From positions 1-32,660 of the IMG/VR virus record IMGVR_UViG_3300017730_000044: a DNA stretch of 32,660 nucleotides. One strand, 5' to 3'. Shown one piece after another: positions 16,013 through 32,660 of the stretch (position 1 is its first letter; every line of letters starts with the position of its first letter). A model generated the notes under the pieces. The model did no database searches and was not told where the DNA came from. It saw nothing but the letters and a program-made list of their open reading frames with translations. Position numbers and translations under genes: made by a program. Source of the DNA: a virus.

Positions 16013-17299
16013 ATGAAAAAAATATTGATTGGTCTGTTAATTAGTGTAAATTTATTATCAGCCGAAAATGAACTTTGGAAATTCTTTAAGTATTCGACTG
16101 CATACGCAAGTTTCAGTTTGAATGCACCAAGACACCAAGATGATAGGTTTGCTATTATAGGTGGGTTGAGTACAGGACAATTACAAGTCGGTAGAACCGA
16201 AAGAGAATTAAAACCTGATTTTCAAACATCATTTGGATTAAGAAAAATTGGTAGATTTAATTATGAACCAAAACGAGGTGTTAAGAATGCTGGAGTTGGT
16301 GGAACTTGGTATGATGGTTCAGAATCTAATGCTAATGAAAGTGCTACATTTGGTCCTGTTCAAGGATGGGAATATCTAATTAAATGGTCAGAAGGTAGAC
16401 AATGGGGTAACGAATATTTAAATCAAGAGTATTGGGTAAGATACACAAGTGATTGGTGGATGGCTAAAATAGGTTGGACGGAGTTAGGATTAGAAGAACT
16501 TGAATATGGTCAAGGTGAATTAAGATTTAAATGGACACCACCTGTTTTAGATGACAAAATAAATTTAAGTATTGGTGTAAAACATAGACAACATCCTGTT
16601 TATGGATTTGATGCTATGGTATTGGATACGACTTGGTACAAAGGACAATGGTGGAATTTCGCAGAAGATGCCTTTGGTATTGATGATAATGCTTGGTTTA
16701 CAGAAGATTATCATTTAAATGGTGACCGAGATATTCAACTATATGAAATAGATCCTGAAACTGGTGAGTTAAGACCGATTGAAGGTGGTGGTCCTTTTTG
16801 GAATGATGATGGTAGATTTGTCGGTGTTGATTGGCTGTGGAGAGATGAGAATGGTAAAATATTTGCATATACAGATAGAGAATATTTCTTATATCACTTT
16901 CCAAGAATGTTAGAAAAGTATATTGGTGGTGTCAAACAAGAAATAGGATATCAAAGAGAAACTTCAATAGTATTGGGAGCTGATTTTTATCATTATGATG
17001 ATTATTGGTGGTTACATGCTTGGGGTAATTGGTTACCTTACCACTTTGGACACGATAAATATTCATATCATAACGGAGCACATTACCAAACTCATTTAGA
17101 AGAAGGTGGTGAACCAAATGAATTTAAATTTAAAGACGCGATGTGGCATAATTGGCACGATTATGATTTTGGAGCAATTTTTGGTGTAAAAATTAAAGAT
17201 AACTTAGGTGTGTTCGCAGAAGGTCGTTATTTAAATTATTGGGAAAGACCAGCATACGATATTAAGTTCGGTATAAATTATCAATTTATGGGATTTTAG
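16013..17299 (+). CDS. Putative outer-membrane beta-barrel protein with signal peptide
   Basis: 428 residues. A clear signal peptide (MKKILIGLLISVNLLSAEN; cleavage likely after LSA). The mature part alternates hydrophobic/aromatic strands, is very rich in Trp, Tyr, Asp and Gly, and ends in a terminal Phe (FGINYQFMGF), as in Bam-inserted barrels. Segments such as TSFGLRKIGRFNYEPKRG and FGVKIKDNLGVFAEGRYLNY look like barrel strands. Three or more internal HYDDYWW/YHNGAHY-type loops are His/Tyr/Asp-rich and could bind metal or glycans. A phage-encoded outer-membrane protein could block superinfection or change permeability; that is inference. It does not look like a virion protein because of the signal peptide. 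Confidence 0.75.
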   Translation: MKKILIGLLISVNLLSAENELWKFFKYSTAYASFSLNAPRHQDDRFAIIGGLSTGQLQVGRTERELKPDFQTSFGLRKIGRFNYEPKRGVKNAGVGGTWYDGSESNANESATFGPVQGWEYLIKWSEGRQWGNEYLNQEYWVRYTSDWWMAKIGWTELGLEELEYGQGELRFKWTPPVLDDKINLSIGVKHRQHPVYGFDAMVLDTTWYKGQWWNFAEDAFGIDDNAWFTEDYHLNGDRDIQLYEIDPETGELRPIEGGGPFWNDDGRFVGVDWLWRDENGKIFAYTDREYFLYHFPRMLEKYIGGVKQEIGYQRETSIVLGADFYHYDDYWWLHAWGNWLPYHFGHDKYSYHNGAHYQTHLEEGGEPNEFKFKDAMWHNWHDYDFGAIFGVKIKDNLGVFAEGRYLNYWERPAYDIKFGINYQFMGF

Positions 17300-17309
17300 G
17301 AGAAAACTT

Positions 17310-17441
17310 ATGAGAGATTGTGAATGTAATGGTTGTCAATGTGAGTATGCATGTGAATGTGGATGTTGTTGTGAATGTGAATGTGAAGCATGTGCATGTG
17401 TAGTGATATGTGAATGTGAGTGTTGTAAAGACACCGAGTAG
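17310..17441 (+). CDS. 43-residue cysteine-saturated microprotein (metallothionein-like composition)
   Basis: ATG at 17310 with AGGAGA 6 nt upstream, stop TAG at 17439-17441. 17 of 43 residues are Cys (positions 4, 6, 9, 11, 15, 17, 19-21, 23, 25, 28, 30, 34, 36, 38, 39), mostly as CxC pairs with Glu between; nine Glu and two Asp make it acidic. It sits on the coding strand with a 10-nt gap before and a 12-nt gap after, both filled by ribosome binding sites, which supports real translation. Cys density and CxC spacing resemble metallothioneins, but no known family is matched and it has no signal peptide. Metal binding, redox buffering or a disulfide-rich structure are options. Repeated TGTGAA codon pairs suggest growth by hexamer expansion. 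Confidence 0.7.
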   Translation: MRDCECNGCQCEYACECGCCCECECEACACVVICECECCKDTE

Positions 17442-17453
17442 AAAGGGAAAAAA

Positions 17454-18056
17454 ATGTTAAAAAAAGTATTGACTTTACTGAGTATTATATTTATATTCAG
17501 TTGTGATGATAGAATAGAAGAAATAGGACCTCAAATAATCAATATGTGGATTGATGGTGAAGTTGTGAATGTGGAAGAAAGATACAAACAAATAACCACT
17601 TATGGTTCAAGAGATACTTATATAGATTCAATTGGTTCAGACGGAACTTGGATTGTAGAACAAAAAACGAAAAAGATTTTCGTAATACATTTTCAAGTAG
17701 AAGATGGTAGAGTTCTTGCATTAAATGAACATTATGCACTTATTTTTGTTGATTGGGATGCAGCAAACTACACCACAAGTTTAATTAACGAAGGATTTTA
17801 TAGTAACCCACATACAGATGATAAAGAAGTATTGTTACAAATTGTAGGACCTTATGATTACACAATAGGTGCACAAGCATCTATTACTGAGTTGAAAATG
17901 ATTTCATCAGGACAATATGCAACTGGTAGATGTGAAGGAAGTTTTTATAATCCATTTACTGATTCTGTAATGGAAGGTGTATTGGAATTTGAAAATGTAA
18001 GAATAAGTACAGATGAAGCTAATACTACTTATTTTGATATCACTCGTGATAATTAA
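17454..18056 (+). CDS. Putative lipoprotein
   Basis: 200 residues, AAAGGG ribosome site. The N-terminus is a lipoprotein signal: Lys3-Lys4, hydrophobic LTLLSIIFIF, then lipobox IFSC with Cys17 as the lipidated residue, followed by Asp-Asp. In enterobacteria Asp at +2 favours inner-membrane retention; other phyla use different rules. The mature part is beta-rich, acidic and without a family I recognise (VFVDWDAANYTT-like and GPYDYTIGAQASITELKM segments). Phage lipoproteins often mediate superinfection immunity by blocking receptors or DNA entry, which would suit its place next to the outer-membrane protein; this is inference. Confidence 0.75.
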   Translation: MLKKVLTLLSIIFIFSCDDRIEEIGPQIINMWIDGEVVNVEERYKQITTYGSRDTYIDSIGSDGTWIVEQKTKKIFVIHFQVEDGRVLALNEHYALIFVDWDAANYTTSLINEGFYSNPHTDDKEVLLQIVGPYDYTIGAQASITELKMISSGQYATGRCEGSFYNPFTDSVMEGVLEFENVRISTDEANTTYFDITRDN

Positions 18057-18681: not shown

Positions 18682-19122
18682 ATGAATAATGGAAAATTAA
18701 TTAAAATTACTTTTAAAACATTATGTGTCATGGGATTAGCATTTATACTATGTGGTAATGTTGTAAATGGTCAAGATAAAAAACCAAAGGTAGAAGTTAT
18801 CAATGATGATAATTTTAAGAAATCAATATCAAAGGGATTTTTTCTTATAAAATTTACATCTGGTTATCAAATGACTACACTTGATAAGAAATTATTTGAT
18901 GGAGTTAGTGGATTTGAAGGTTGTAAAATAATCGAAGTTGATGCGGGAAATGCAAAAAAAGTAATTAAAAAACTTAGAATACGAAACTATCCATCTTTAG
19001 CATTATTTCACAACGGAAAAAAGAAAGAAGTTTGGAAGGCCGATATGGATGGTGTTGTAGATATTAATAATAAAGATATCAAAAAGGCTATTTCAAATGC
19101 GATAGCAGGTGATGTGTTTTAA
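18682..19122 (+). CDS. Exported thioredoxin-fold protein lacking the CxxC active site
   Basis: 146 residues with a signal peptide or anchor (hydrophobic about 14-29). From residue 36 on it follows the thioredoxin pattern: VEVINDDNFKKSISKGFFLI, the central strand FLIKF, then IEVDAGNAKKVIKKL and RIRNYPSLALFHNGKKKEV with the cis-Pro at Pro104. Where WCxxC should be, it has S60-G61-Y62-Q63-M64, and Cys81 is the only cysteine in the folded part. So the oxidoreductase chemistry is probably lost, leaving a binding or chaperone role in the periplasm. Starts 2 nt after the MshEN-like gene. Fold call is fairly sure; function is not. Confidence 0.75.
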   Translation: MNNGKLIKITFKTLCVMGLAFILCGNVVNGQDKKPKVEVINDDNFKKSISKGFFLIKFTSGYQMTTLDKKLFDGVSGFEGCKIIEVDAGNAKKVIKKLRIRNYPSLALFHNGKKKEVWKADMDGVVDINNKDIKKAISNAIAGDVF

Positions 19123-19125
19123 TGT

Positions 19126-19782
19126 ATGAACATCGCAACGATAGCTGGACATTTAGCATTTGGGTTAATAGCATTTTCGTTTCTTGTAAAGGATATACTA
19201 TATCTTAGACTACTTTCAATTTTAGCAAGTCTATTCTCAGTATTTTATAATTTTTATATACCAGACCAACCCATGTGGTTGGCAATCAATTGGAACATTG
19301 TCTTTGTTCTTGTAAACCTTTATCACATCGCTGTTATCATATATGAAAAACGACCTGTCCACATGGACGATAAGAATAATGAGTTATACGAAACCCTATT
19401 TAAAGATTTAACACAAGTAGAGTATTTAAAAATTAGTAAGGCTGCTATTTGGAAAACATTTCAACCTAATGAATTTATTACAAGACAAACACATCTTGTT
19501 CCAGATTTAGTATTGATATACAATGGAACAATAGATGTATTAGTAAATGGTAAAAAGGTGGCACAATTAAAAGATGGACAATTTGTTGGTGAGATGTCAT
19601 TCCTTACAGAGAAATCAGCAACTGCAACTTGTATTGTAAAACATCCGTGTGAATGTTTAGTTTGGAAACAAAGGGAGTTTAAAGAATTGTTAAAAAGAAA
19701 CCCATCATTATATTTCACACTTCAAACTCTGTTGAGTGCACAAGTTTCAGATAATCTTGTAAGTAGTTCAAAATCTGAATAG
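19126..19782 (+). CDS. Three-helix membrane protein with cyclic-nucleotide-binding domain (Popeye-like layout)
   Basis: 218 residues, 3 nt after the previous stop. Three hydrophobic helices fill residues 3-72 (AGHLAFGLIAFSFLVKDILY; LLSILASLFSVFYNFYI; INWNIVFVLVNLYHIAVIIY), then a cNMP-binding beta-roll at about 90-215. Its phosphate-binding cassette is at 151-168: GQFVGEMSFLTEKSATAT. Gly155-Glu156 are kept, but the usual Arg is Lys163. The three-helix plus cNBD arrangement is that of Popeye-type proteins. Upstream strands LVLIYNGTIDVLVNGKKVAQ fit the fold. A role in sensing or sequestering cyclic nucleotides, for example to alter host signalling or defence, is possible but not shown. Confidence 0.78.
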   Translation: MNIATIAGHLAFGLIAFSFLVKDILYLRLLSILASLFSVFYNFYIPDQPMWLAINWNIVFVLVNLYHIAVIIYEKRPVHMDDKNNELYETLFKDLTQVEYLKISKAAIWKTFQPNEFITRQTHLVPDLVLIYNGTIDVLVNGKKVAQLKDGQFVGEMSFLTEKSATATCIVKHPCECLVWKQREFKELLKRNPSLYFTLQTLLSAQVSDNLVSSSKSE

Positions 19783-27115: not shown

Positions 27116-30100
27116 ATGGCAATACTTAGAAGATATAACAAATATCAAGGATTAAAGGATATCGATGTCCTTATTGAAGATGATGCGCCAATCTCACAAT
27201 ATTTTAATGTTGCAGAAGTTCCAGATATTATCTCACAAGGTCGTAGTTCATTTTTAGTTGGTGGTTCATCATTATTAAAAAATGGTGTAGAGTTAAAATT
27301 TGAATTAATAAATGATGCTACTGGTAAAACTATTTATTTAGAACCAGTTTCAAATTATCTTGAAGGTGATGCCCGTAGAATATCAGTTGAAATATATGAT
27401 GACGCCGAAACCTTTGGTGATGCCACTTTATATTGTCTTGGTGAATTAAACCCAAATGAAGTAGATGTACCAGCCGAATGGAGAGATATTTATAATGTTC
27501 GTTGGTATCGAAAAATTTATATTAGTGGTGCGGGTACAAATTCAGAACCAATATATTTTTATAATCAACCATCCATGTGGGTTGGAGAAATAGTAAAAGG
27601 TTTTGTAGAAACATCGTTTCCGACTGGTTCAGTACAGCAAACTGGAGAAGTTAGTGGAGAACCATTACCAGGAACAGAAGGTACAAATCCATCAACTGAA
27701 GAAGTAAGTAGTATAAAGGTTTTACAAAAGGGATTTAAATCTAAAGTATTTGGTGGTGGTGGAAAAAATGCTGGTGTTAGTCGTAGAGGTAGAAAGGCAA
27801 GACGAGCCTCTCCTGAAGTTGATAAATTTAGTTTCTCCATTGAAGATGAAACATCAAAGTCTGATGTAAGACACGTTGGTGCAACATTTAAAGTAAACAA
27901 TCCCCAACCTGCAGAGTCATTTGAATTAGAATCATATCATGAAGTTCCAACTATATATGAAACGGATATTGTAGATGTAAAAACTGATAAACAATTAGTT
28001 CCTGCAAAAGAATTTGTTATAACGGATACAAGATTTCCTGAAGATGATGAAAGACGAAAGGTAATAGTTCCTTTAGCAAAGTCGCCATATACGATGTCGT
28101 TTCAACCAGCACCTACTCATTCAGTAAGTACGGTTAATTTCCGTTCTTTTGCAGATGTAAGAATATCTAAAATGAGAACATTTAGTGGTGATGTTCATAG
28201 AGTAAAATTATATGCAAAAAACAAAGATGCGTTTGGTGATTTTGAATTAATAGCAGACACTCCAATAGAAAGTCCTGAAATATTATTTGATGTATTTAGT
28301 TCGGCTGGTTCAAAAAGAATTGGTTATTTTAATGACCAAAGTACACTTGATGATTATTGGAGTAGTGCATCAAATACTACTGCATCTTTAAATTCTACAT
28401 ATGTTCTTGATTCTGTTCATATATCTGGTTCAAATAGTCAACCTAATGAATTATTAAAATTTCAAATTACAGGATCAAGACCGATAGAATTTTATAAAGG
28501 TATTGATTATTCAATTAGGGCAAGAATAATTGGAGAGGCAGGTCCTAAATCTTTTACCGATGGAGAAGCATTAACTTCATTTGGTGAACTTGGTATTTTC
28601 TTATCGGGTTCATCTTTTGAAACTAATCACAATTTTGGTAATGAATATGGATTTCAATTAACACCACCCGGAGAAAGCACTCCTGGTTCATTAACCATTG
28701 AATCAGTAGATGGTCCTGGTTTAAAAGATTTTGGAATAGTAGAGGAAGTTTTTACACCACTTCGTAATGGTGAAGATAATGTTTTACAATTTGGTATTCC
28801 AGCTGGTAATTTTTATATATCTGATATTTCTATAACACCAGTAGCAGATACAGGATTTTCACCTGATTGGATTAAAATAGTAGCTCCTGTTCCACCATTT
28901 TCACAAGAAAGGCCTGATGATTATGAATTTATGGCAGAGTTTTATGATGTAAATAATAATGTAGCCGATACCGTAACTCATGTTAGTGCATCTACTTTTG
29001 TGGGGGCAAATAATTACATAGTTGGTTCTGATAATGTATTAAGTGGTTCTATGTTTATTGGAAGTGCAATTGGTAGTGGTATAGAAATGGCTGGAGTTAG
29101 TTCAGGATTTATTCGTAGTATAGGATACAAAGGATTTACAAGTGCGTCCGCATACCCAACTCAAGGTCCTGGATTCTTAATGTATAGTGGTTCTGTATTA
29201 ACTGATGTAACAGATGATTATAGTAATGGTGGAATTGGATTAGAATTAGTAGGTCATAGTGGTAGTTATCTTAGATTTCGAACTAATCCAAGTGAACTTG
29301 ATATAAGAACCGATGCATTCTTTATAGGACAAGAACCACTTCAATATATTAGTGGTTCGGAAGGTAATATAGAAATTAGTTCTTCATTATTTCATCTCGA
29401 TCCTAAAAATGAACGATTAGTAATTGGTGCAGATGCTACAATTAATGCTGATTTAACAGTAAATAATATACGAACACCTGCACAAATAGGTGGAGCTCCA
29501 TCTACATTTGCAAATGCATCTGCTTCTATAACTTCACAAGGTAATGTGGTATTTAGGTCGGGTTCTATTGCAAATTGGAAAATATTTGGTAGTAAACTAT
29601 CAGGTTCAAACGCCACATTAGATGCCGATGGGGCAGCATTATATATGTCTGATAAAGGACCTAATACTGATAATTCCGCGACATTTGATATTCAAAGGGA
29701 TGAGTATTATATTGACTTTACACCTGCAGACCAAGGTAACGACAGAAATTATTATGTTAAGTTTGGTCCTAATTTTGCAGTAGATAGTGATGGAGTTTTA
29801 ATTGCTAGTGGGGCAGTATTTGAAGGGCAAATAACTGCTTCTACTGGATTAATTGGTGGAGCAAGTATAGAAAGTGCATCTTTAGCCTATTCACCATTTT
29901 GGAGAATATCCTCATCAGCAGACCAAACTGATCCTACATCGTTTATTTCATCAAGTGAATTTAAAGTATCGGCTGGTGGATTAGTTACGGGTTCTGCCAT
30001 CTTATTAGGTGATAAAGGTGGTGGAAATTATTTACAATTCATAGATGATACTTTGACGGTTGAAGGTAATATTACGGTTAATAGTATTAAGACACCTGCT

Positions 30101-32660
30101 ACAATCGGTGGAGTTGCATCAACTACTCTAAATTCATCAGCTAGTATAGAATCTGATGGATTTGCCTCATTTAAATCTGCTTCCATAGGTGGATTTCATG
30201 TTTCTTCGGATACCATAAACGATACAAATGATAGATTGATATTAAAATCAAGTGGTCAGATAACTGGTTCAAAAGTATTATTTAGTGGTGGTAATATTGG
30301 TGGATGGACTATTAATGAAACGAATATAACAAGTCCAGGAGCTGGAATTAGACTTAATGCAAATGGAGATAATTCAGAAATATCCATAAACTCTCATACC
30401 TTCGCAAATGAAGGAATACAATTAGGATTCAATGGTGGAAGTCCAAGATTTTACGCTGGTGATGGGGCCCAAAACTTTTTAAGATATGATTCGAGTAATG
30501 GTGTATCAATTAAGACAACTTTATTTGAATTAGATACACCTACACTTGAACTATCTACGACACATGCTTCCATGTCATTGGGTTCAAGTCAAGAAATTAT
30601 TATGAGGGGTAATAGTAATAGTCCATTTATAGCTATTCAACCAAGTGTAGCCCTTCAAGATAAAGCTTATGGTGAGATAGGAATAATGCTTGCAGTTGCG
30701 GCAGGTACAACACCATTGTTTTCAGCGGTGGGAACTGGTGGACATATAAAATTTAATGGAACTCTATTAGATATAAGTACTGATACAGCAGTAATTAGTG
30801 GTAGTTCAATACAATTAGTCACTCCAACATTCCTACTTGGTAGTGTATCCGATGGTAATTACATTAGTGGTTCTAATGGAAATATGGAAATTCAATCAAA
30901 TGCCTTTGAATTAGACGCAAATAATATTGAAATTAGTTCTACAAACGCAAGTATGTCGATAGGTGAAACCTCTGATGGTGGTCATGCTATTAAACTTGAT
31001 GGTGCACAAGGTAAAGTTTTTGTTGGTTCTAATAGTTCGAAACAAATCGAAATATCTGGAAATCACGCCAAGGGATACATAGCAACTGGGAAAAATAGTG
31101 TAGATTCTACAACTGAAGGTTTTTGGTTCGCAAATAATAATGCGAATCCTGAATTTCATATTGGTGACGCAACCGATTTTATAAAATTACAGCATGGTAA
31201 CTTAGATATAGCATCTCAAAAACTTGAAATATCTGCATCAACCATACAAGTCTCTACAACCCACGCTTCTATGAGTTTTGGACACAACTCAAGTTACCCA
31301 CAAGGTAAATTGATTGTGGAAGGAAGTGGTACACCTACATTTAAGATGGGTCCTGATGTAGGGTTTATCTCTATGACTACTGGTAGTGGTGTTTATATGG
31401 ATGGTGATGGTAATTTCAGATTTGGTGATGACGATGGTGGAATAACATTTAATAATGGTTCATTTGCAATTACTGGTTCAGACCTTGATATATCCGTTAC
31501 AGAATTAAATATAGTAGCGACTGGTTTTGAATTATCTTCACAAGAAGCTTCAATGTCGTTGGGAACAAATCGTCAATTACATTTTCAAGGTGGAAATGCA
31601 AATCCATATATCAGTATTGGTATGGGGGGAAGTGGAAGTTACGGAACTGAAGGTGTATGGTTAGCACATAATAACACACAAAATAGACCACAAGTTTCTT
31701 TTGTAGGTTCAGCAGGACATTTTAAATTTGATACTGGTGTAGATATTGATACAAGAACATTTGAACTTGATGCAAATAATGGTGATTTACAGATTTCATC
31801 TACACAAAAGTCCATGTCACTTAATGATCAAACTATTGTATTGGATGGAACAAATGCAAAAATAACAATTGGTTCAGCAAATCCAGTAATAATACAAGGT
31901 GGGGCTACCGATAACTTTATGACTATGGGAAGTAAAACTTCCTTTACTCATTTTGACCAATCTACTCAAGGTATTATAGTTGGTATGGATTCAACCGTAC
32001 CTAAATTTGAAATGGTTGGAAGTGCTACCAATTACCTATCATATGATGGTTCTAATTTTGACATAAAACTTTCACAAGGACTTGAGTTAGATGCTACAAA
32101 TATAGAATTATCATCTACACACGCAAGTATGAGTCTTGGTGAGGGTAAAATTAAGATGGTTGGAGCATCTACTTCATTTATCCAAATTGGAGCAGCGAAT
32201 TCCATAACACTAAAAGATGATGGTACTGATAGGTTTATGTCTATTGGAAAAACAAGTTTTTCACACTTTGACCAATCTACGGCAGGATTTATAGTTGGAA
32301 CAGATGGTGGTACGACTAAATTTGAATTAGCAGGAAGTGCAACAAATTATCTTTCTTTTGATGGTTCAAATTTTGATATAAAATTATCACAAGGATTAGA
32401 ATTAGATGCCTCAAACATAGAATTATCTTCTACACAGGCAAGTATGTCATTAGGTGAAGGTAAAATAGTATTACAAGGTGCTTCTTCACCATTTATGGCT
32501 ATCAATTCAGGAAGTGCTAATCAACTACTTGTCAAAACGGATGGTACAGATGCCTTTATGACTATGGGAAGTAAGACAAGTTTCTCAGACGAGGGTAGTG
32601 GAACAGCAGGTATCTTGATTGGAATGGACGCAAGTAACCCACAGGCAGAATTCGTTCTTC
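27116..32660 (+). CDS. Very long tail-fibre / virion surface protein (3' truncated)
   Basis: ATG at 27116 with CGGAG upstream; I read the frame through to base 32659 with no stop, so at least 1848 residues, and the gene leaves the window. Residues about 1-170 (MAILRRYNKYQGLKDIDVLI start) look like a folded attachment domain. About 180-250 is a basic, Gly/Arg-rich linker (GGGGKNAGVSRRGRKARRAS). From about 390 a beta-sandwich-like part follows, and the rest is Ser/Thr/Gly/Asn-rich beta repeats, including TxHASMS units and a ~106-residue tandem repeat near the end. Composition and length fit a long fibre or tailspike stem, with a receptor-binding tip or chaperone-cleaved end beyond the window. 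It lies after the - strand regulator and has its own box. Confidence 0.85.
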   Translation, partial: MAILRRYNKYQGLKDIDVLIEDDAPISQYFNVAEVPDIISQGRSSFLVGGSSLLKNGVELKFELINDATGKTIYLEPVSNYLEGDARRISVEIYDDAETFGDATLYCLGELNPNEVDVPAEWRDIYNVRWYRKIYISGAGTNSEPIYFYNQPSMWVGEIVKGFVETSFPTGSVQQTGEVSGEPLPGTEGTNPSTEEVSSIKVLQKGFKSKVFGGGGKNAGVSRRGRKARRASPEVDKFSFSIEDETSKSDVRHVGATFKVNNPQPAESFELESYHEVPTIYETDIVDVKTDKQLVPAKEFVITDTRFPEDDERRKVIVPLAKSPYTMSFQPAPTHSVSTVNFRSFADVRISKMRTFSGDVHRVKLYAKNKDAFGDFELIADTPIESPEILFDVFSSAGSKRIGYFNDQSTLDDYWSSASNTTASLNSTYVLDSVHISGSNSQPNELLKFQITGSRPIEFYKGIDYSIRARIIGEAGPKSFTDGEALTSFGELGIFLSGSSFETNHNFGNEYGFQLTPPGESTPGSLTIESVDGPGLKDFGIVEEVFTPLRNGEDNVLQFGIPAGNFYISDISITPVADTGFSPDWIKIVAPVPPFSQERPDDYEFMAEFYDVNNNVADTVTHVSASTFVGANNYIVGSDNVLSGSMFIGSAIGSGIEMAGVSSGFIRSIGYKGFTSASAYPTQGPGFLMYSGSVLTDVTDDYSNGGIGLELVGHSGSYLRFRTNPSELDIRTDAFFIGQEPLQYISGSEGNIEISSSLFHLDPKNERLVIGADATINADLTVNNIRTPAQIGGAPSTFANASASITSQGNVVFRSGSIANWKIFGSKLSGSNATLDADGAALYMSDKGPNTDNSATFDIQRDEYYIDFTPADQGNDRNYYVKFGPNFAVDSDGVLIASGAVFEGQITASTGLIGGASIESASLAYSPFWRISSSADQTDPTSFISSSEFKVSAGGLVTGSAILLGDKGGGNYLQFIDDTLTVEGNITVNSIKTPATIGGVASTTLNSSASIESDGFASFKSASIGGFHVSSDTINDTNDRLILKSSGQITGSKVLFSGGNIGGWTINETNITSPGAGIRLNANGDNSEISINSHTFANEGIQLGFNGGSPRFYAGDGAQNFLRYDSSNGVSIKTTLFELDTPTLELSTTHASMSLGSSQEIIMRGNSNSPFIAIQPSVALQDKAYGEIGIMLAVAAGTTPLFSAVGTGGHIKFNGTLLDISTDTAVISGSSIQLVTPTFLLGSVSDGNYISGSNGNMEIQSNAFELDANNIEISSTNASMSIGETSDGGHAIKLDGAQGKVFVGSNSSKQIEISGNHAKGYIATGKNSVDSTTEGFWFANNNANPEFHIGDATDFIKLQHGNLDIASQKLEISASTIQVSTTHASMSFGHNSSYPQGKLIVEGSGTPTFKMGPDVGFISMTTGSGVYMDGDGNFRFGDDDGGITFNNGSFAITGSDLDISVTELNIVATGFELSSQEASMSLGTNRQLHFQGGNANPYISIGMGGSGSYGTEGVWLAHNNTQNRPQVSFVGSAGHFKFDTGVDIDTRTFELDANNGDLQISSTQKSMSLNDQTIVLDGTNAKITIGSANPVIIQGGATDNFMTMGSKTSFTHFDQSTQGIIVGMDSTVPKFEMVGSATNYLSYDGSNFDIKLSQGLELDATNIELSSTHASMSLGEGKIKMVGASTSFIQIGAANSITLKDDGTDRFMSIGKTSFSHFDQSTAGFIVGTDGGTTKFELAGSATNYLSFDGSNFDIKLSQGLELDASNIELSSTQASMSLGEGKIVLQGASSPFMAINSGSANQLLVKTDGTDAFMTMGSKTSFSDEGSGTAGILIGMDASNPQAEFVL
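30550..32455 (+). repeat. Degenerate ST(x)HASMS-type repeat series in fibre stem
   Basis: Seven copies of a short protein motif, S/T-T-x-x-A/K-S-M-S-hydrophobic (for example TTHASMSLG, STNASMSIG, TTHASMSFG, SQEASMSLG, STQKSMSLN, STHASMSLG, STQASMSLG), each preceded by an ELD/LEIS-type strand. Spacing is irregular until the last three, which fall in the longer tandem repeat. Typical of trimeric beta-structured fibre stems. Confidence 0.6.
31919..32660 (+). repeat. Tandem ~318-321 bp repeat, third copy cut by window end
   Basis: Copies start at the Met of FMTMGSKTSF (31919), FMSIGKTSF (32237) and FMTMGSKTSF (32558), giving periods of 318 and 321 bp, 106-107 residues. Shared units include FDQST, SATNYLS-DGSNFDIKLSQG, and LELDA-NIELSST. 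The third copy is truncated and has already diverged (SFSDEGSGTAG). Indicates recent duplication in the fibre stem. Confidence 0.75.

Follow-up and report, generated by a model that had tools for sequence, protein, structure and literature searches.

Ultra-short cysteine-rich peptides encoded by aquatic phages, proposed as minimal metallothionein-like chelators

Many aquatic viruses of bacteria encode cysteine-rich peptides of ~9 to 50 amino acids (aa), and this is a family for which we found no earlier description. One member is the 43-aa product of an open reading frame (ORF) in a 32.7-kb virus record, here called the window (the whole stretch of DNA that was analyzed). Judging from its sequence and from that of its relatives, we think that, on balance, this phage-encoded micropeptide works in trans, as a minimal kind of metallothionein.

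Results

The micropeptide gene occupies positions 17310 to 17441 on the plus strand of the window. It encodes MRDCECNGCQCEYACECGCCCECECEACACVVICECECCKDTE, a peptide with a net charge of −9 in which 17 of the 43 residues (40%) are cysteines, arranged mainly as CxC; its translation contains no histidine, and no signal peptide was seen. A ribosome-binding site, AGGAGA (17298 to 17303, plus strand), overlaps the stop codon of the upstream ORF and is followed 6 nt later by the ATG, and similar sites are kept in relatives. On the other side, 12 nt separate the stop codon from the start of the next ORF, which is preceded by AAAGGG. The original prediction had described this ribosome site, the number of cysteines, and a metallothionein-like composition, all of which we confirm, and we agree that the ORF is shorter than common gene length cutoffs. 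A degenerate hexanucleotide array of TGTGAA (Cys-Glu) extends from 17319 to 17423 on the plus strand (Tandem Repeats Finder: period 6, 17.5 copies, 66% matches), and a second repeat signal has a period of 33 to 39. The array suggests that the window's copy arose from a short core by hexanucleotide (Cys-Glu) expansion, a step that we infer from the repeat pattern.

A TGTGAA simple repeat might also leave a frame open by accident, in which case there would be no gene at all, and the tandem signals inside the ORF are what such an accident would produce. We consider this highly improbable in view of the homologue at locus L012, which likewise has 43 aa. The outer-membrane barrel protein encoded at L012 is 92% identical to that of the window, and the micro-ORF follows the lipoprotein gene there, whereas it precedes it in the window. 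Sixteen nucleotides differ between the two ORFs, 12 of them at third positions, which amounts to 7 synonymous and 7 nonsynonymous codon changes (stop codon included), and all 17 cysteines are kept. When this comparison was simulated with a random mutation model, every cysteine was retained in 0.1% of the trials (P = 0.00095), so few amino acid changes were seen in 0.6% (P = 0.006), and a stop was introduced in 54%. The third-position bias and the retention of cysteine show that the frame is a coding gene under constraint and not a product of chance. Short relatives such as MCECENCQCGKK, which have a correct Shine-Dalgarno (SD) sequence and almost no repeat, and the dependence of the family on the ribosome site (see below) also speak against an accidental frame. 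No broken copies were seen at homologous loci; in relatives the ORF is either cleanly missing or moved. The earlier proposal of a translated gene is thus borne out by the dN/dS-type pattern (mostly third-position changes, few amino acid changes), by the conserved cysteines, and by family members at the same locus.

The window looks, from its gene content, like a fragment of a tailed phage, with a baseplate wedge gene, then tail genes, and then a block of exported and envelope proteins. The baseplate wedge gene is 38 to 43% identical to those of Flavobacterium phage immuto and Microcystis phage Mel-JY01, the former being structurally related to the phage of the window. Immediately upstream of the micropeptide gene, positions 16013 to 17299 (plus strand) encode an exported protein of 428 aa with 79 viral relatives and a putative signal peptide read from the sequence. 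AlphaFold2 (pLDDT 55, pTM 0.54) and Foldseek similarity to NanC, NalP, FapF, and OmpG point to an outer-membrane beta-barrel; the protein had no Pfam or PHROG match, no solved structure was matched by sequence, and none of its relatives was confirmed in GTDB genome contigs. Downstream, positions 17454 to 18056 (plus strand) encode a putative lipoprotein of 200 aa with a lipobox, ..IFIFSCDD, read from the sequence, and with relatives that are 80 to 100% identical. Three further ORFs on the plus strand of the window deserve mention. An exported thioredoxin-fold ORF (18682 to 19122; Pfam E = 1.8e−6) apparently has no CxxC active site. The ORF at 19126 to 19782 encodes a membrane protein with Popeye and cyclic-nucleotide-binding domains (Pfam E = 1e−14 and 4e−14); such a protein is unusual for phages and might sense a second messenger. 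From 27116 to 32659 runs a single ORF of at least 1,848 codons that continues past the end of the window and likely encodes a large tail protein or adhesin.

The original prediction also suggested that the micropeptide loads metal into the neighboring outer-membrane protein. We dropped this idea because a specific histidine signal is absent: the histidines of the barrel are no more conserved than its tyrosines, tryptophans, and glycines. Moreover, similar peptides elsewhere adjoin iscU, hsp20, capsid, terminase, phoH, or nrdB-type genes.

To find relatives, 79 viral loci were picked by the neighboring barrel protein alone, and the micropeptide was not used in the selection. Barrel-fetched and lipoprotein-fetched loci and the window were then scanned on both strands, at every base, for SD-preceded ORFs of 10 to 60 aa with at least 20% cysteine. 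This gave 34 matches in 785 kb (33 of them convincing; 4 loci were fetched twice), against 0 to 2 per 785 kb of Markov sequence, and all but one of the 34 lie on the same strand as the barrel gene and within its cassette. The search of related phage loci that had been called for found a cysteine-rich ORF of 11 to 43 aa beside the barrel gene in 29 of 79 loci (28 by the scan, plus L042). The window protein is no singleton but belongs with a large set of phage peptides that are even shorter, among them MCECENCQCGKK, MCDCTDCGCGK, MCDCCGCDCNCNCGK, MSECGCKDCICNGGCMNCKCCKC, and MCNCNDCSCDKCLSGCTCTSCDC, most of which are far shorter than the window's copy.

Alignment of the family reveals a common core, the N-terminal M(0-2)C-x-C-x-x-C-x-C, which corresponds to CECNGCQC and its flank in the window (17319 to 17338, plus strand). 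The N-terminal C-x-C-x-x-C-x-C is present in 14 of 20 distinct peptides, compared with 1.9 expected from residue shuffling, and CxCxxC occurs somewhere in all 20. The tails vary in length and content, and members of 9 to 15 aa stop after the core. Charge varies as well, from −9 in the window protein to +4 in MCKCKDCKCNPCRCK, as do the flanks, the total length, the neighbors, and the position relative to the barrel gene, which is downstream in most loci and upstream in some relatives. The gene is missing from many related phages and is therefore dispensable in some hosts. Nine relatives (L016, L017, L020, L023, L024, L026, L044, L051, and L053) carry other small ORFs in the slot after the outer-membrane protein gene, namely basic RK-rich ORFs of ~45 aa, His-rich membrane-anchored ones, or a Lys-rich exported one (MKTILTGILSLF..); small accessory genes thus have a hotspot in this slot.

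Scans of IMG/VR with a pattern made of an SD sequence, ATG, and CxCxxCxC recovered dozens more peptides from unrelated viral contigs, which in this database are predicted viruses, some of only a few kilobases. Seventy-one distinct peptides passed the filter, of which a few from GC-rich contigs may be due to chance. When GGAG in the pattern was replaced by the control CCTC, the count collapsed from 73 stretches to 10, none of which resembles the family, showing that the family depends on the ribosome site. In bacterial and archaeal contigs (257 Gb) there were 11 pattern matches, most of them chance-like and lying in GC-rich or 4Fe-4S frames, and the one good member of this cellular set (L116, from a Flavobacteriales metagenome-assembled genome [MAG]) represents the same phage locus. 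Two class-level scans (369 and 395 genomes, 764 in total) returned only the two seeds and three chance-like matches, which is background; as the pattern used for viruses was not quite that used for cellular genomes, these counts make the family phage-specific at this sensitivity only.

Among cultured phages, tblastn with the 43-aa protein gave nothing at E ≤ 10, and searches with the outer-membrane protein or a longer relative gave no credible match, within the sensitivity that low-complexity filtering leaves to such searches. No ORF of this kind occurred in the tail region of phage immuto or in cultured autographiviruses of Pelagibacter and Roseobacter, which are relatives of the iscU-bearing phage L189. 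In the literature outside the main catalogue of phage small genes, we found no report of phage metallothioneins or of phage CxCxxCxC peptides. Two observations from the scans stand apart. Contig L102, which looks bacterial and not viral, encodes on its reverse strand (~113 to 149) the 9-aa MCNCTNCTC, with an SD sequence, after a CopC-domain gene and thus in a copper context. Contig L090 (1826 to 2020, plus strand) has a 64-aa ORF that starts with MCDCENCDCEKK and continues into a zinc-ribbon-like part, possibly a micropeptide core fused to a larger metal-binding domain.

The genes that adjoin the micropeptide change with the lineage. Neighbors confirmed by Pfam are NifU_N (IscU), HSP20, PhoH, the small chain of ribonucleotide reductase (RNR), WhiB, and CopC, of which HSP20, the RNR small chain, WhiB, and CopC are each linked in single lineages. 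Capsid and terminase neighbors were assigned by reading the sequence, with only a subthreshold Pfam match to capsid protein E, and nrdB-type genes are among the neighbors in other viruses. Such placement before or after many different genes is expected of a product that acts in trans. A second exported protein, unrelated but with a similar signal sequence (..SSLFGQ), directly precedes a cysteine-rich micropeptide in five loci (L163, L172, L195, L196, and L209); adjacency to surface protein genes therefore arose more than once.

A second unbiased set consisted of 80 viral loci fetched with IscU. An SD-preceded, cysteine-rich micro-ORF was present in 23 of these, and without the SD filter C-x-C-x-x-C-x-C-x-x-C-x-C was found in 31 of the best 35 iscU loci. 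The peptide starts inside iscU, directly after it, or one small gene away, and the residue before the fifth cysteine is proline in nearly all cases. These peptides are encoded by 25 distinct DNA sequences, in which TGT and TGC replace each other at cysteine codons; the regular expression fixes the cysteines, so their conservation is no evidence in this set. Six other loci have a longer type of 27 to 36 aa upstream of iscU. Iron-sulfur (Fe-S) assembly genes of marine phages (IscU/NifU auxiliary metabolic genes) are already known, and here many of them have the micropeptide as an overlapping neighbor, one that the consulted passages of that report do not mention (PMC7785012).

Does this linkage point to a more specific role? 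The thiols could transfer or shield Fe-S clusters, or buffer the thiol-disulfide balance, instead of storing metal. Of the 35 closest viral iscU loci, 31 have a CxCxxCxCxPCxC peptide at or directly after the gene, and this, the RNR small chain and WhiB neighbors in L149, and the small HSP20 neighbors would all fit a helper of this kind. However, NifU_N was absent from the 19 records of the window's own lineage, iscU does not lie beside the peptide in most other lineages, and the thioredoxin-like ORF of the window (18682 to 19122) seems to be without CxxC. We therefore regard an Fe-S or redox helper as rather unlikely; mainly because of the iscU linkage, it is the closer rival to the chelator, whose chief alternative of another type is a cis-acting leader.

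In such a leader (uORF), translation of the dense cysteine codons would respond to a shortage of cysteine or to metal on the nascent chain, and stalled ribosomes would set the expression of the next gene. There is a precedent in CruR (DUF2946), a copper-sensing uORF before an outer-membrane transporter gene, which has ~145 aa, one CXXC, and a RAPP arrest motif and heads its operon (PMC9426467). The phage ORFs resemble it in having a cysteine motif next to an outer-membrane protein gene, and their small size, their many cysteine codons, and, in some relatives, their placement ahead of the barrel gene would suit a leader. They differ from it in that all listed peptides lack RAPP and have no fixed position, and the window protein had no Pfam match to DUF2946. 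An attenuation leader would always lie upstream and come with an RNA switch, but in most loci the micro-ORF follows the barrel gene, in L012 it comes behind the lipoprotein gene, and the next genes are unrelated to one another. Only 12 nt follow the ORF in the window, RNA folding is unremarkable (z = −1.16), and there was no Rfam match and no terminator-like site on the ORF's strand. The downstream placement, the unrelated next genes, the short gap, and the ordinary fold weaken the case for a leader, which we judge improbable.

Discussion

What might a peptide consisting of little more than four cysteines do in an infected cell? Invariant thiols on a short chain without a signal peptide, combined with variable charge, length, position, and neighbors, suit a chelator that acts in trans. 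We hypothesize that one soft metal ion (Zn2+, Cu+, Cd2+, or Fe2+) is held by the four core thiolates, in a tetrahedral or cluster site, and that longer members such as that of the window bind several ions as metal-thiolate clusters. The peptide would be made in the cytosol, alongside the products of neighboring envelope, capsid, stress, or Fe-S genes, and would buffer or carry metal, or guard against thiol-reactive metal stress, during phage production.

The nearest counterparts are the prokaryotic metallothioneins (PF02069; SmtA, PDB 1jjd; Pseudomonas metallothioneins, 6gv6 and 6gv7), which are cysteine rich and presumably cytosolic, like the phage peptides. SmtA of Synechococcus has an N-terminal CxCxxCxC in KCACEPCLC (CACEPCLC), the same spacing as CECNGCQC in the window peptide, and it binds four metal ions (PMC7387436). 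By analogy, the sharing of this motif with a four-metal metallothionein counts for the chelator, as do the linkage to iscU in the second unbiased set and the single-lineage links to HSP20, RNR small chain, WhiB, and CopC genes. The window protein is also small and rich in cysteine with CxC and CxxC motifs, as functional metallothioneins are, and its relatives have at least 20% cysteine by the scan. However, SmtA has 53 or more residues, with 9 cysteines plus histidine and a folded zinc finger part, whereas the phage peptides have 9 to 50 aa and lack that part together with its conserved Cys/His residues.

The window protein and its longer relatives had no match to PF02069 at E ≤ 10 (SmtA control, E = 3.7e−21; peptides below 20 aa are not scannable), the metallothionein models of Pfam and NCBIfam gave no meaningful match among the scannable peptides, and the PDB had no match to the window protein. 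The eukaryotic metallothionein family PF12749 shares the dense CxC spacing, but its best E-values (0.49 to 6.2) fall far short of the cutoff, and we do not claim homology. Hence, the earlier statement that the spacing fits no known family holds for family profiles, but not for the N-terminal CxCxxCxC, which is the first cysteine motif of bacterial metallothioneins. The window peptide may act like a metallothionein, but it stands outside the metallothionein family profiles.

Phytochelatins are gamma-Glu-Cys peptides that are made enzymatically and are not gene encoded. The CECE segments of the window peptide resemble the Glu-Cys runs of these compounds and of synthetic (Glu-Cys)n analogues, but most phage relatives are not rich in glutamate. 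A methanobactin- or RiPP-type precursor was considered, but no modifying enzyme was seen beside the gene.

Four points count against the chelator. The missing metallothionein profile match is one; the 12-aa forms, which would hold one ion at most, perhaps as dimers, are another; the iscU linkage fits a specific Fe-S or redox role too; and many related phages do without the gene. A broader proposal is more tentative still: from the spread of the core motif, many unrelated phage lineages may have evolved a common class of ultra-short, ribosomally made metal-thiolate peptides (CxCxxCxC, often 9 to 20 aa), nearly missing from cellular genomes. These would be the smallest known genetically encoded metallothioneins and a general tool with which phages control metal or Fe-S chemistry during infection, a possibility to which we give slightly less than even weight.

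Gene callers skip ORFs this short, and a recurrent class of phage genes has been overlooked as a result; for annotation, the family can be found with a single DNA pattern. The iscU-overlapping members offer a clean, testable system for a micropeptide that feeds, protects, or competes with an Fe-S scaffold. If the peptides bind metal, those of 10 to 20 aa would be the smallest natural metallothioneins, and the control of metal or Fe-S would join nucleotide and photosynthesis genes among the functions that phages manage.
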